A stretch of 64,000 nt of DNA from positions 1 to 64,000 of the forward strand of contig JADLCX010000036.1 of the NCBI GenBank assembly GCA_020846975.1, given 5' to 3'. Positions 15,773-22,593 of the stretch are shown piece by piece; positions within the stretch are counted from its first letter, which is position 1; the number at the start of each line of letters is the position of its first letter. Made by a program: the position numbers and the translations under genes. This DNA comes from Phycisphaerales bacterium (GTDB lineage Bacteria > Planctomycetota > Phycisphaerae > Phycisphaerales > UBA1924). The notes under the pieces are model-generated. The model was not told where the DNA came from. It ran no database searches and worked only from the letters and a program-made list of their open reading frames with translations.

Positions 15773-15938
15773 GGAGCATGGTTGGAGGGGTGAGGCCTTG
15801 ACGGTCGGTGCAAGGGCCCCTGATCCTTGCGATGCCTGGGGGTCGGGACGTTTGGGGTGCAACGGAGATGCGGAGGATCGGGTAGGCTGGGGTACGGATG
15901 CGCGAGGTTGTGGGAACACGTCGGGCCGGGGGAGGATG

Positions 15939-15968
15939 CACGGCTTGGCTCAGAGCAGCCAAGCCGTG
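15939..15968. repeat. Perfect 12-bp hairpin upstream of the NHL lipoprotein gene
   Basis: CACGGCTTGGCT (15939-15950) pairs with AGCCAAGCCGTG (15957-15968) around CAGAGC. It lies 28 bp before the lipoprotein start. It could attenuate transcription, terminate read-through or be a dispersed palindromic repeat. Confidence 0.6.
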
Positions 15969-15996
15969 GCACGCCCGGCAGGCCCCTTCCTGCTCC

Positions 15997-17100
15997 ATGC
16001 TGCGCATGAAGCGGACCTCCCCCGTGGGGGAGGTTGGGCTGCTCGTGGTGTTGCTGATGTCTGGGTGTGACAGGACACCGGAGCCGGGGTTGCCGGTCGC
16101 GGCGGAGATCACGTTCGGAGGGTTGGGTGACACGCCGGGCAAGTTCGGGTATCCGCGGGCGATCGATGTCTCGGCGGATGGCCGGAGCCTGTGGGTGATC
16201 GACAAGACGGCGCGGGTGCAGCGGATCGACCCGGAGACGGGCCGGTGCACGGCGATCTGGCGGATGCCGGATTCGGACCTGGGCAAGCCGGTGGGGTTCT
16301 GCATCGCGCCGGGGCGCGATGCGGCGGGGAAGTGGTGTGATGAGTTGTTGTACATCGCGGACACGCACTACGCGCGGGTGATGGTGTACAAGCCGCCGGG
16401 GGATAGGGAGCGCGACTCGGAGAGCCGCGATACCGCCGGTTCGGAGAACCACCCTACCCGGACCACCGGGGAACCGGAGTTGGTGGCGAAGTTCGGGGAG
16501 TATGGGCAGGGAGACGGCCAGTTCATCTACCCGACGGATGTGGCGGTGCTGCTGGGGCCGGAGGGGAAGAGCGTGGAGCGGATCTACGTCGGGGAATATG
16601 GCGGGCACGATCGAATCAGCGTCTTTGACGGGAGTTACCGGTTCAAGTTCAGCTTCGGCGAGTGGGGCGACGGGCGGGATGCCGCGAAGGTGCAGTTTGC
16701 CCGGCCGCAGAGTCTTTTGATCGAGACGATCGGCGGAAGGCGGGAACTGATGGTGACGGATTCGGCGAACCACCGGCTGGGCCGGTTCACGCTGGATGGG
16801 GAGTTGATCGGGTGGATCGGCTCGCCGGATTCGGCGGGGGATGGGCCGGGGCAGTTCCGGTATCCCTACGGTCTGGCCGCGCTGGGGGATGGGACGGTGA
16901 TGGTGAGCGAGTTTGGCGGGAACCGGGTGCAGCGGATCGAGGTGCAGAGCGGGGCGAGCCGTGGGAGTTGGGGTCGCGCGGGTCGGGGTGAAGGGGAGTT
17001 GGCGGCGGCGTGGGCGGTGGCGGTGGCGGGGAGCCGGACGTTCGTGGTGGACGCGGGGAACAACCGGGTGATGGGGTTTGCGACGCCGCGGCGGAGGTAG
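15997..17100 (+). CDS. NHL-repeat beta-propeller lipoprotein
   Basis: About 367 aa. The N-terminus LLVVLLMSGC is a lipobox, so the mature protein is predicted to be lipid-anchored. ATGs at 15997 and 16006 both fit and neither has a good ribosome site. The rest is a six-bladed-type NHL propeller with blade motifs such as GKFGYPRAIDVSADG, GQFIYPTDVAVL, GQFRYPYGLAALGDG and FVVDAGNNRVMGF. A loop of about 25 charged residues (GDRERDSESRDTAGSENH) interrupts one blade. Such proteins are usually binding or scaffold proteins, sometimes peptidyl-glycine lyases. No catalytic residues can be assigned. Confidence 0.75.
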   Translation: MLRMKRTSPVGEVGLLVVLLMSGCDRTPEPGLPVAAEITFGGLGDTPGKFGYPRAIDVSADGRSLWVIDKTARVQRIDPETGRCTAIWRMPDSDLGKPVGFCIAPGRDAAGKWCDELLYIADTHYARVMVYKPPGDRERDSESRDTAGSENHPTRTTGEPELVAKFGEYGQGDGQFIYPTDVAVLLGPEGKSVERIYVGEYGGHDRISVFDGSYRFKFSFGEWGDGRDAAKVQFARPQSLLIETIGGRRELMVTDSANHRLGRFTLDGELIGWIGSPDSAGDGPGQFRYPYGLAALGDGTVMVSEFGGNRVQRIEVQSGASRGSWGRAGRGEGELAAAWAVAVAGSRTFVVDAGNNRVMGFATPRRR

Positions 17101-17109
17101 GCAAAGACA

Positions 17110-17150
17110 GGAACACAGAGGCACGGAGAAGGCACAGAGAGCACAGAGAA
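17110..17150 (+). repeat. Inverted repeat, left arm, flanking the GxxExxY gene
   Basis: A 41-nt purine-rich arm (GGAACACAGAGG...CACAGAGAA) matching the reverse complement of 17703-17743 at 39 of 41 positions. It lies 5 bp before the ATG of the gene and 10 bp after the stop of the NHL lipoprotein gene. Confidence 0.85.
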
Positions 17151-17155
17151 GAACC

Positions 17156-17647
17156 ATGGTGTCTGATCCGAACAAAATGGTGGGGCGGGATGGGGTGGAA
17201 CTGCCGGCGCGGTTCAACGAAGTCACGCGCGGAGTGATTGGCGCGGCGATCGAAGTGCACAAGGTGATGGGGCCGGGACACCGTGAGCAGTACTACGAGC
17301 GCGCCTTGCGTCACGAGCTTGGGCTCGCCGGGCTGAGTTCCGAGGCGCAAGTGCCGTTCAAGGTGAGCTACAAAGGGATGGAGCTGGGAACGCAGGTCAT
17401 TGACCTGGTGGTCGAGGGAGTCGTGATCGTCGAGTGCAAGTGCGTGGAGGCTGTCCTGGACGTCCATCAAGCCCAACTTCTGGGGTATCTGCGCTTTACT
17501 GGGCTGCCAGTCGGTTTGTTGTTGAACTTCCATGTTGCGCGGCTCACCGATGGTCTTACCCGACGCATCAACTATCCGCCCTGGGCAACAACAGACCGCC
17601 GCACCAGTACCCGTTCCGGCTCCGTGCTGTCTGTGCCTACTCCGTAA
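17156..17647 (+). CDS. GxxExxY family protein, PD-(D/E)XK nuclease-like fold
   Basis: A 163-aa protein. The family signature is exact in GPGHREQYYERAL (G41, E44, Y47). It is followed by the hallmarks of a PD-(D/E)XK core: D83 in QVIDLVV, E93-x-K95 in VIVECKC and a helix with HQAQLLGYLR. The ATG at 17156 gives the usual N-terminus (FNEVTRGVIGAAIEVHKVMG). The last dozen codons run into a pyrimidine-rich repeat (17621-17658), so the C-terminal tail SGSVLSVPTP is repeat-encoded. The whole gene sits between 41-nt inverted repeats. Family members are widespread in planctomycetes and often multicopy; their function is not established. A DNA-processing role is inferred from the motif only. Confidence 0.82.
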   Translation: MVSDPNKMVGRDGVELPARFNEVTRGVIGAAIEVHKVMGPGHREQYYERALRHELGLAGLSSEAQVPFKVSYKGMELGTQVIDLVVEGVVIVECKCVEAVLDVHQAQLLGYLRFTGLPVGLLLNFHVARLTDGLTRRINYPPWATTDRRTSTRSGSVLSVPTP

Positions 17648-17658
17648 CTGTGTGTTCC
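17621..17658 (-). repeat. Internal copy of the right-arm repeat
   Basis: 38 nt matching 17706-17743 in the same orientation with four mismatches. It overlaps the 3' end of the GxxExxY coding region, so the repeat supplies the last codons and the stop. Confidence 0.75.
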
Positions 17659-17702
17659 ATTTTTGCCTGTGTTTCCGTCTCCCACGCCCCATGCATTTGC
17701 CT

Positions 17703-17743
17703 TTCTCCGTGCTCTCTGTGCCTTCTCCGTGACTCTGTGTTCC
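17703..17743 (-). repeat. Inverted repeat, right arm, flanking the GxxExxY gene
   Basis: Pyrimidine-rich on the plus strand (TTCTCCGTGCTCTCTGTGCC and following bases) and the inverse of 17110-17150 with two mismatches. It ends 26 bp before the start of the VWA gene, so it would form part of that gene's leader. Confidence 0.85.
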
Positions 17744-17769
17744 GCCTTCGCCTTGAGAGTTGAACAAGC

Positions 17770-20700
17770 GTGATCCTCGCGTTTCACATCGGCCCGATCG
17801 AGTTTGACCAGCCGCAGTGGCTGCTGCTGCTGGGCGCGCTGGTACCGCTGACGGTGTGGATCGGACGGCAGAGTCTGAGCGGGATGGGGACGGCGTCGCG
17901 GCGGGTGGCGCTGGGGGTTCGGCTGGTGGTGATCTTTCTGCTGGTGGGTGCGGTGGCGAAGCCGTACTGGCGGAAGGAGAGCAGGACGGTCAACGTGGTG
18001 GTGATCCGTGACACGTCGGACTCGGTGCGGCGGCCGACGACGGTGAACGGGGCAACGACCGACCTGACGCAGCAGGCCAAGAAGTTCGTGCAGGAAGCGG
18101 CGAGGTTCGCCAAGCCGGACGACCTGATCAGCATCGTGACGGCGGCGAAGAAGAGTTACGTGCAGGCGCTGCCGGTTCCGGCGCGGGACGAGCCGGAGAG
18201 CGAGGTGACGGGGGAGACGGACGCGACGAACCTGGCGGAGGCGGTGACGCTGGCGATGGCGATCATGCCGGGGTCGAGCGCGAACCGGCTGCTGCTGATC
18301 AGCGACTTCAACCAGACGGCGGGCGACCTGGCGCAGGTGGCGAACGCGGCGAAGGCTGCGGGGGTTCCGATCGACGTGCTGCCCTTGAAGTACCGGTACG
18401 ACAAGGAAGTGCTGGTGGAGCGGATCGTGGCGCCCGCGACGGCGCGGATGGGACAGAACATCAACCTGAAGGTGCTGATCAGCGCTCTGAAGGCGGGGAC
18501 GGGGTCGCTGAACCTGACGATCAACGGGGAGCCGGTGGACCTGGACGCGACGGGCGAATCGATGGCGATGAAGGTGAGGCTGGAGAAGGGGATGAACGCG
18601 GTCTCGATCCCGATCGCGCTGCCGCGGCCGGGTCCGCTGGCGTTCCGGGCGTATTACCAGCCGGACGATCCGTCGGACGACGCGATCCAGCAGAACAACC
18701 AGTCGATGGCGGTGACGTTCGTGCAGAGCGAGGGGCGGGTGCTGCTGCTGGCGCCGAGCGAAGATGAGGTCTCGGCGCTGAAGCAGACGCTGGAGCAGGC
18801 GAAGATCGCGGTGGAGGTGCGGGAGGCGTCGAACGCGCCGACGACGAAGGAGGAATGGGCGGGGTACGACGCGGTGGTGATGGCGAACACGCCGGCGTAC
18901 GCGTTCACGCAGCGGCAGCAGGAGGACCTGAGGGCGTACGTGCACGACCTGGGGGGCGGGCTGGTGATGATCGGCGGGCCGGACGCGTTCGGCGCCGGGG
19001 GTTGGATCGGCTCGCCGCTGGCCGATGCGCTGCCGATCAAGCTGGAGCCGCCGCAGAAGAGGCAGATGCCGCGGGGCGCGCTGGTGCTGGTGATGCACTC
19101 GTGCGAGATGCCGCAGGGGAACTACTGGGGCAAGCAGGTGGCGCTGTCGGCGGTGAACGCGCTGTCGCGGCTGGACCTGGCGGGGGTTCTGGAGTTCAGT
19201 TTCGGTCGCGGGGACTGGTGGGTGCACCCGTTGAGCGAGGTGGGCAACAAGGCGGCGATCTCGCGTGCGATCAACAGCCTGACGTACGGGGACATGCCGA
19301 GTTTCGACAACCTTCTGAACATGGCGATCAAGGACCTTCGGAAGGCCGCGGCGGGGATGAAGCACATCGTGATCATCAGCGACGGCGACCCGCAACTGCT
19401 GGACAACACGATCCTGGCGACGTGCCGGATGAACAAGATCTCGATCTCGTGCGTGCTGGTGTACCCGCACCAGCGCGGGTACAGCACGCCGGACTGGCAG
19501 AAGATGCAGCACATCGCCAAGAGCACGGGGGGGAACTTCTACCCGATCATCGAGCAGGGGGAGTTCGCGAAACTGCCGGAGATTTTCATCAAGGAAGCGC
19601 AGGTGGTGAAGAGGTCGTTGATCTGGGAGGGGCCGGCGTTCCAGCCGCGGGTGATCGCGTCGGGGAGCGAGCCGATGCGGGGGCTGGGGACGGCGATGTA
19701 CCCGATCTCGGGGTACATCGTGGGCGCGGACCGTGAGGGGCTGAGCGTGGTGACGCTGCGCGGGCAGGAGAACGACCCGGTGCTGGCGCACTGGCAGTAC
19801 GGGCTGGGCAAGGCGGTGGCGTTTACGAGCGATGTGGGGTCGAGGTGGGCGCGGTCGTGGGTGGGCTCGCCGAAGTTCCGGCCGTTCTGGGAGCAGCACG
19901 TGCGGTGGGCGATGCGTCCGGGCGGGAGCGCGGATGTGCGGGTGCTGACGGAGGACCTGGGGGAGCGGACGCGGATCATCGTGGAGGCCTTGGACAGCAA
20001 GGGGGAGCGGCTGAACTTCATGAGGTTTGACGGGCGGGTGCTGGGGCCGAACAACTCGACGCAGAGCGTGGAGCTGCGGCAGGAGGGGCCGGGTCGGTAC
20101 GTGGGGGAGATCGACAGCGCGGCGGCGGGGGCGTACGTGGCGAACTTCCGGTACTGGACTCCGGCGAGCGAGGGTTCGCCGGCGCGCGAGGGGAACCTGC
20201 AGGCGGCGGTGACGCGGCCGTTCGCGGACGAGTATCGGACGTTGCAGGACAACGCCGCGCTGGGCAAGTTGATCGCGGAGAAGACGGGCGGGCGGGTGAT
20301 CGATGTGGACCCGACGAAGGCGGAGTTGTGGAGCCGCGCGGGGCTGAGGATGCCGGTGGCGACGCGGTCGATCTGGCTGACGGTGTCGCTGATCGCGATC
20401 GGGCTGTTCCTGACGGATGTGGCGGTGCGGCGCGTGCGGTTTGATCCGCGGGCGATGGCGGCGGCGGTGAGGCGCGGGCTTGGCCAGGGGCGGCGCGAGG
20501 CCGGGGCGCAGATGGCGTCGCTGCGGGAGGCGAGGGAGCGGGCAAAGGCGGGGATCGGGGCGAGCGCGACGGAGCAGGCGGCGGCGAAGGCCGCGGCCGC
20601 GAAGGCGAAGAAGGACCAGGCGACGTCGCGGGCGAAGTTCGAGGCGACGATCGACGAGCTGGTGAAGGGCAGGAGCAACGAGGCGTTGCCGACGCTGATC

Positions 20701-20814
20701 GACAAGACGATCAAAACGCGGCCGCGGACCGAGGGGGAGAAGAAGGAGGAGGAGGGCGGGATGTCGCGGTTGAAGAAGGCGAGGGATCGGGCGAAGGAGG
20801 AGTTTGGGGAGTAG
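17770..20814 (+). CDS. Large membrane VWA-domain protein of a MoxR-associated set
   Basis: A 1,014-aa protein starting with GTG. Two N-terminal membrane helices (about 16-32 and 47-64) are followed by a long outer region. A VWA metal-ion site begins at D81-T-S83-D-S85, and a second VWA-like segment contains HIVIISDGDPQLLD. A flavodoxin or glutamine-amidotransferase-like stretch (YDAVVMANTPAYAFTQRQ...GGGLVMIGGPDAFGAGG) lies between. One more membrane helix near 867-885 precedes a cytosolic tail of about 130 residues rich in Ala, Lys, Arg and Glu. This matches the large BatA-like proteins encoded beside moxR and DUF58 genes. It probably detects or organises extracytoplasmic proteins with the MoxR ATPase encoded 107 bp downstream. 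Confidence 0.8.
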   Translation: MILAFHIGPIEFDQPQWLLLLGALVPLTVWIGRQSLSGMGTASRRVALGVRLVVIFLLVGAVAKPYWRKESRTVNVVVIRDTSDSVRRPTTVNGATTDLTQQAKKFVQEAARFAKPDDLISIVTAAKKSYVQALPVPARDEPESEVTGETDATNLAEAVTLAMAIMPGSSANRLLLISDFNQTAGDLAQVANAAKAAGVPIDVLPLKYRYDKEVLVERIVAPATARMGQNINLKVLISALKAGTGSLNLTINGEPVDLDATGESMAMKVRLEKGMNAVSIPIALPRPGPLAFRAYYQPDDPSDDAIQQNNQSMAVTFVQSEGRVLLLAPSEDEVSALKQTLEQAKIAVEVREASNAPTTKEEWAGYDAVVMANTPAYAFTQRQQEDLRAYVHDLGGGLVMIGGPDAFGAGGWIGSPLADALPIKLEPPQKRQMPRGALVLVMHSCEMPQGNYWGKQVALSAVNALSRLDLAGVLEFSFGRGDWWVHPLSEVGNKAAISRAINSLTYGDMPSFDNLLNMAIKDLRKAAAGMKHIVIISDGDPQLLDNTILATCRMNKISISCVLVYPHQRGYSTPDWQKMQHIAKSTGGNFYPIIEQGEFAKLPEIFIKEAQVVKRSLIWEGPAFQPRVIASGSEPMRGLGTAMYPISGYIVGADREGLSVVTLRGQENDPVLAHWQYGLGKAVAFTSDVGSRWARSWVGSPKFRPFWEQHVRWAMRPGGSADVRVLTEDLGERTRIIVEALDSKGERLNFMRFDGRVLGPNNSTQSVELRQEGPGRYVGEIDSAAAGAYVANFRYWTPASEGSPAREGNLQAAVTRPFADEYRTLQDNAALGKLIAEKTGGRVIDVDPTKAELWSRAGLRMPVATRSIWLTVSLIAIGLFLTDVAVRRVRFDPRAMAAAVRRGLGQGRREAGAQMASLREARERAKAGIGASATEQAAAKAAAAKAKKDQATSRAKFEATIDELVKGRSNEALPTLIDKTIKTRPRTEGEKKEEEGGMSRLKKARDRAKEEFGE

Positions 20815-21972: not shown

Positions 21973-22593
21973 ATGACAGACAAGCCAAGCCGAATCGACC
22001 GCTTTGTGAAGGTCCGCGGACAGGTTCATCTGGCCCGCGACTACGCCACATTTCTGGAGCGCTCATTCTGGCACAGTCAAGAGCGATGGGATGCGATCGC
22101 GGCGTTTGGCCCAGGCATCCACACGTTGCTCCACAAAGCGTTACTGGATTCACTGGTACTCTGCTTGCGCAGGCTCCTTGATGAGCCAGGATCTGACAAG
22201 AAGCGAACGCTCAGTTTTCTCGGGTTTATTCAAAGCATCCGAGATGACGAACCAACACACGCTGCTGGCTTGACTGCATCACTGGACGCTCTTGAAACGA
22301 CAGTAAGAGCTTTGCGGAATCAAGTGCCACAACTCAAGACTTGGCGCGACAAGCTGATCGCTCACCTGGACGAATTGGCTGTACTTGCACCTCTGACAGA
22401 CATCCGGTACACGATCGATGAACTTCTGCACACAGTTCAAGGTGCGGAGACTGCCCTCAATCAAGCAGGCTCGCTTGTGTTTTCAAACTGCACGCCCGAG
22501 GCGCCTGATAGGTCGATTGCTACTGAGATCGAAGGCTTTATGATGACGTTGTTGAGCGCTTCCGCTGTGTCGAGTCCAAATGCAGAACGTTGA
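21973..22593 (+). CDS. HEPN-domain protein, AbiU2-like
   Basis: A 206-aa, mostly helical protein. The R-x4-6-H signature of HEPN ribonuclease-type domains is present as R125-DKLIA-H131 (LKTWRDKLIAHLDE). An earlier helix, LLHKALLDSLVLCLRRLLDE, resembles the first helices of AbiU2-type HEPN proteins. Base composition is clearly lower in GC than moxR and DUF58 on either side, suggesting acquisition. It begins 7 bp after the moxR stop and ends 5 bp before the DUF58 ATG, so it is built into the operon. A role as an RNA-cleaving effector or inactive RNA binder is inference; no antitoxin of the MNT type is adjacent. Confidence 0.6.
   Translation: MTDKPSRIDRFVKVRGQVHLARDYATFLERSFWHSQERWDAIAAFGPGIHTLLHKALLDSLVLCLRRLLDEPGSDKKRTLSFLGFIQSIRDDEPTHAAGLTASLDALETTVRALRNQVPQLKTWRDKLIAHLDELAVLAPLTDIRYTIDELLHTVQGAETALNQAGSLVFSNCTPEAPDRSIATEIEGFMMTLLSASAVSSPNAER

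Follow-up and report, generated by a model that had tools for sequence, protein, structure and literature searches.

What is a small gene of the GxxExxY family doing between two inverted copies of the same repeat, and could its protein be what moves or maintains them? GxxExxY genes are widely annotated, and we know of no role assigned to them. The gene considered here lies in the window, by which we mean the whole 64,000-nucleotide stretch of Phycisphaerales DNA that was analysed, and the initial annotation proposed that gene and repeats form a self-contained cassette of a nuclease with its terminal repeats. That proposal is now supported by other genes framed in the same way, by element-free sites in relatives and by the conservation of the nuclease residues.

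The element in the window and its operon

The two arms of the element (17110-17150 and 17703-17743) are 41 nt long, 95% complementary (39/41 positions matching) and separated by 552 nt. They are real, as initially annotated, and so is a third, direct copy that supplies the last codons of the gene. The 35-nt core of the arm, allowing at most three mismatches, occurred twice in the window and not at all in 100 dinucleotide shuffles. Complementarity continues outward to about 52 nt (17099-17150 with 17703-17753), so that the left arm, on the forward strand, starts right at the stop codon that ends the NHL-repeat gene upstream (15898-17100, forward strand, as the ORF is listed; its true start is perhaps later). 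A feature missed at first reading is that both arms are built from a single 7-nt word, repeated about four times in each with slight variation; the left arm consists of the tip AGGCAAAGACAGGAA followed by the units CACAGAG, CACGGAG, CACAGAG and CACAGAG. The GxxExxY gene follows on the forward strand at 17156-17647 (163 aa, with an alternative ATG at 17177). The right arm has an inner direct copy (17620-17668, reverse strand), which overlaps the 3' end of the gene, is 84% identical to 17705-17753 at a spacing of 85 and contains the stop codon of the gene (17645-17647). The right arm itself, an inverted copy of the left one, occupies 17703-17753 on the reverse strand, and a VWA-domain gene (17770-20814, forward strand) lies downstream.

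The encoded protein belongs to the PD-(D/E)XK nuclease family TIGR04256/PF13366, with scores of 125.5 bits against TIGR04256 (cut-off 35) and 124.4 bits against PF13366 (cut-off 22). The GxxExxY motif and the D83...E93-x-K95 pattern had been noticed from the letters alone. With numbering from the ATG at 17156, the motif is G41-E44-Y47. Among 18 aligned relatives D83, E93, K95, Y47 and Q107 are invariant and E44 nearly so, and the window protein keeps D, ExK and QxxxY intact. A structure predicted with a pLDDT of 88.9 (near 97 in the core) gave SSO0001 as its best structural match (Z 9.1), with Hjc (Z 6.8), LHK-Exo and AddAB-type nuclease domains among those that followed; several nuclease domains other than Hjc scored Z 6-7.6. 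This confident model predicts that the window protein has the PD-(D/E)XK, or restriction-endonuclease-like, fold. Foldseek alone returned no match to the model at E < 0.001, and a sequence search for solved relatives returned no significant match. XisH and Hjc, which appear in the fold list, were rejected as closer identities because a Z below 8 indicates a shared core at most. PDDEXK_3 was the sole Pfam domain found at E up to 0.1, with no Y1 (HUH) transposase domain. A phage or defence function was also considered and set aside, the protein having neither a PHROG nor a PADLOC match.

The NHL, VWA, MoxR and DUF58 genes around the element are conserved in the family, and in most relatives examined a GxxExxY gene lies between MoxR and DUF58. 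That place in the window (21973-22593) is taken by an AbiU2-like HEPN gene, which possibly replaced the operon GxxExxY gene. In relatives the VWA-domain gene comes directly after the NHL-repeat gene, with only a short gap where the window has its element. A protein tree groups the window protein with the operon copies, as sister to the operon copy of one genome (G019; support 97/95), and the arms of that copy resemble those in the window. Most simply, the gene would have moved within the operon together with its arms, the window site being new for a lineage resident among the MoxR, VWA and DUF58 genes. Within a family, a GxxExxY gene can keep the same place in the operon. Operon copies that are armless often have damaged motifs too. 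Three PF13366 genes are present in the window's own genome. Besides the window gene there is one near a contig end, where the available sequence showed no arms, and a longer one with neither ExK nor arms.

Arms, catalytic residues and word grammar across genomes

Across 41 genomes from the same family and order, arms were present at 38 of the 43 GxxExxY genes with ExK and at 1 of the 26 without it (Fisher p 8e-13). The ExK-less genes form a conserved paralog with a different C-terminus, about one per genome, which serves as a natural control for the association. A lack of conserved nuclease residues, which the initial annotation had named as evidence against its cassette, was not what we found: the residues are conserved, and it is the ExK-less copies that are without arms, with the single exception counted above. 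L033 (G000:C20:28050), the paralog of this kind in the genome that the window comes from, is probably, like its family counterparts, a domesticated, non-catalytic form that lacks ExK and arms.

We then extended the comparison to all prokaryotes, with one genome per species. The best 80 loci and five loci on viral contigs gave 82 testable loci, of which 67 had arms, called at a left-right complementarity score of at least 14, compared with 7 of 427 control intervals; the broad alignment was too diverse for scanning the collection and a closer query set was used, so that this sample is biased toward the main clade. The best 80 loci span over a dozen phyla, including one archaeal group (Methanosarcinales). 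The initial annotation had suggested checking whether other copies of the repeat also frame GxxExxY genes; arms of this kind do so across prokaryotes. At four of the five loci on viral contigs the arms are AT-rich and follow a grammar unlike that of the main family. Among the genes on contigs classed as viral (L214-L217), which have inverted AT-rich arms, words of the ACTTAAAATTT type occur in L216 and L217. Spread on plasmids was set aside as an explanation, since only 8 of 72,556 plasmid records carry a GxxExxY gene and all eight are typed as non-mobilizable.

The arms repeat a heptamer, C-R-C-N-(A/C/G)-A-(G/T), whose starts are 8-9 nt apart. Ninety-one elements have at least two heptamer units in both arms, and in these the mean difference between units was 0.55 within an arm and 0.48 between the two arms of one element, versus 1.72 between elements of one genome and 1.44 between genomes. 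The heptamer is thus common to both arms of an element and differs among elements of one genome. The word also follows the protein tree: it required 39 changes, whereas shuffled labels required 52.7 on average and none of 200 shuffles was as low, with GC-stratified labels giving the same outcome. A cross-phylum subset behaved likewise (26 changes versus 32.3 in shuffles, none of 300 as low). Orthologous copies at one operon site have different words, the left arm matching the right in each, suggesting that the two arms evolve together where they are or are exchanged as a pair. Because arms are alike within an element and different between elements, copying from arm to arm is directly testable.

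Our search of the open-access literature, with subscription papers and preprints outside its scope, found no paper that ties GxxExxY, TIGR04256 or PF13366 to arms, repeats or mobility. PF13366 has been reported as expanded in Arctic algae (PMC9756366), and an algal virus gene list includes one GxxExxY gene (PMC12085832). Together with the scattered gene-less arm copies described next, the framing of GxxExxY genes suggests that they belong to small mobile elements of a widespread and apparently undescribed family.

Gene-less hairpins and element-free sites

The core of the window arm occurs at about a dozen other places in its own genome, mostly as gene-less hairpins of 107-131 bp that have the same outer tip, GGAACACAGAG...CTCTGTGTTCC. 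The same genome also holds a gene-less hairpin of about 190 bp (L020; G000:C58, ~347700) with tandem words of the GTGACAAG type, like those in the arms of four-helix-bundle genes described below. Arms of one flavour number 28 in G035 and 11 in G042, both of which have a gene element with matching arms, and same-flavour gene-less elements are scattered between genes in these two genomes; three sister genomes gave 2, 2 and 3 weak matches. Across the 41 genomes, arm number correlated with the number of active genes (Spearman 0.73, kinship ignored). Sites with a CACNGAG pair ranged from 0 to 84 per genome with an active gene (n=20) and from 0 to 13 without one (n=21), and were more numerous in the former; a reversed-pattern control for this count was invalid, since that pattern also arises within any array of at least three words. 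Two genomes, G033 and G009, carry many CACCGAG or CACAGAG inverted pairs, although neither yielded a gene element whose word matches. Loss of the gene, cross-recognition and a missing contig are possible readings.

We also observed nested and clustered arrangements. Some of the scattered gene-less elements in G035 and G042 enclose a second arm pair of another flavour; such nesting was seen in L233, L236, L237 and L249 (GCCGCAAAGAGG...), and a gene-bearing element of the same genus (L083) has arms similar to the nested pair. At L202, L205 and L222, gene-less hairpins lie beside or around GxxExxY genes, like REPIN clusters next to RAYTs.

Empty sites in relatives, which the initial annotation had advised looking for, were found at three places besides the NHL-VWA gap. 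A gene-bearing element lies between a pntA-like and a pntB-like gene (names read from the flanking codons, not from a database match) in G035 and G042 and is absent from G027, G031 and G041, where the flanks align at 77-83% with 14-105 bp between them. A short arm-like stretch similar to the arm tip persists at these free pnt sites (CTCTGTGGTTGGATC in G027), so that loss with a scar, instead of gain, is possible there. A gene-less insertion at site A is absent from three genomes, and one at site B is present in G035 only, absent even from its nearest sister; at both sites the free alleles show no arm-like sequence. No target-site duplication was recognised at five sites, the spacers around the insertions being too diverged to read the chemistry. 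The outer tip at the pnt site at first resembled inverted host sequence; the idea that tips derive from the target was dropped because CCAACCAC proved to be the consensus tip of this flavour in gene-less relatives.

A repeat found mostly without the gene had been named beforehand as a further point against the cassette. Most arm copies are indeed gene-less; however, REP/RAYT systems show the same, and element-free sites exist. The pattern of arms, gene and dispersal is shown at the level of sequence.

Related systems and how the arms may spread

The comparison with REP-associated transposases offered by the initial annotation fits well. REP/RAYT systems (REPtrons; PMC3116915, PMC3733652) likewise pair an enzyme gene on the chromosome with a dispersed repeat, inverted copies of which flank it; they also have gene-less inverted doublets of that repeat elsewhere in the genome, several repeat flavours with different enzymes per genome and clusters of doublets beside some genes. 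Genomes with GxxExxY can hold several gene elements with different words, but G033 and G009 have arms for which no matching gene was found. However, GxxExxY is a PD-(D/E)XK nuclease, whereas RAYTs are Y1 (HUH) transposases, and the arms are iterated 7-nt words without a GTAG tag. Because it differs in both enzyme and tag, the GxxExxY element is not a REP/RAYT; it likely works like one.

Other known elements share part of this architecture. TIRtrons, with their TIRYT enzymes, also have an enzyme gene between long terminal inverted repeats, which themselves make up a moderately repeated family, but their enzymes are tyrosine (Y1) transposases, and an iterated-word structure is not described for them in the part of PMC3733652 consulted. 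MITEs are similar in being short, gene-less inverted-repeat elements that are present or absent at orthologous sites, but here the diverged spacers revealed no target-site duplication, and the candidate partner is a PD-(D/E)XK nuclease instead of a DDE transposase. The intervening sequences of 23S rRNA, whose mobility has long been suspected, also place one small ORF, encoding an S23p four-helix bundle, between terminal inverted repeats; their protein is unrelated to GxxExxY, their arm words are different, and they are located in rRNA and removed by RNase III (PMC4990558).

This last likeness extends to freestanding four-helix-bundle genes (S23/IVP-like, TIGR02436), 23 of 30 of which were framed by inverted iterated arms, compared with 0 of 28 control intervals. 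Their arms (L103-L132; for example L128, L120 and L116) use another short word with a period of about 7-8, and the heptamer is rare in them. GxxExxY is therefore not alone in having iterated inverted arms, so that either the nuclease becomes a less convincing mover or the arms mark some broader class of elements. On the first of these readings, host repair and replication slippage, or another transposase, would make and move the arms, and GxxExxY would be one of several small genes carried between them. In favour of this explanation, several arm-framed four-helix-bundle genes lie in genomes without an active GxxExxY gene, and Y1 (HUH) transposase genes are present in all 13 genomes tested. The grammar of the words, however, tracks the gene family. 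The RAYT loci of the same genomes are framed by a different kind of inverted repeat (18/20), namely long GTAG-tagged REPs of the TGTAGCC type, and at none of the 20 loci by heptamer arrays; RAYTs were therefore rejected as movers of the GxxExxY arms. That these loci display their own REPs also provides a positive control for the arm-detection method. Such long inverted repeats frame many planctomycete Y1 transposase genes (L328-L347). With loss of ExK accompanied by loss of the arms, and with the word following the protein tree, we consider it unlikely that GxxExxY is a mere passenger.

Still less probable, in our judgment, is a regulatory or RNA-level role, in which GxxExxY would bind iterated operators at its own gene, or the arms would stabilise or terminate transcripts, with their dispersal being passive. 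The arms do lie right at gene ends within operons, long stems are expected if they are transcribed, and such roles have been ascribed to REPs (PMC3733652). Against this, one gene-less flavour became numerous in G035 and G042 but not in three sisters, only G035 has an element at site B, and operators would not need exact inverted doublets at unrelated loci. A homing-like selfish gene, whose nuclease would cut arm-like sequence at free sites so that host repair copies the gene in via short homology, would suit the PD-(D/E)XK fold, the tip-like sequence at the free pnt sites and the nesting of one element inside another of different flavour, but seems improbable, given that the free alleles at sites A and B are without arm-like sequence and that gene-less copies far outnumber gene copies.

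The reading we favour, and regard as reasonably probable, is that these are widespread small mobile elements in which inverted arrays of a 7-nt word flank a PD-(D/E)XK endonuclease gene, the window copy being one gene-bearing member. We infer that the nuclease recognises, cuts and moves the arms. The protein would recognise the iterated word in arms that are probably extruded as hairpins or cruciforms, and would cut there. Repair copying could then keep the two arms of an element alike and occasionally put a hairpin, with or without the gene, into a new intergenic site, the gene-less hairpins being non-autonomous partners, as REPINs are to RAYTs. Being rare on plasmids and able to stay at one operon site, the element is not an aggressive transposon. 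A more tentative extension, to which we give somewhat less than even credence, is that these elements form a distinct prokaryotic class, in which the GxxExxY nuclease would recognise a short, element-specific word in the hairpin and spread such hairpins, gene-bearing or gene-less, and in which the unrelated four-helix-bundle family would have the same layout with words of a different grammar.

For the GxxExxY family, the analysis provides a concrete hypothesis and a testable substrate. If the hypothesis is true, a new type of enzyme would be added to the few thought to spread palindromic repeats in chromosomes, and there would be an explanation for a large class of short hairpins that lie between genes in many phyla. 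It could also join the freestanding four-helix-bundle genes and the 23S intervening sequences under one kind of element.
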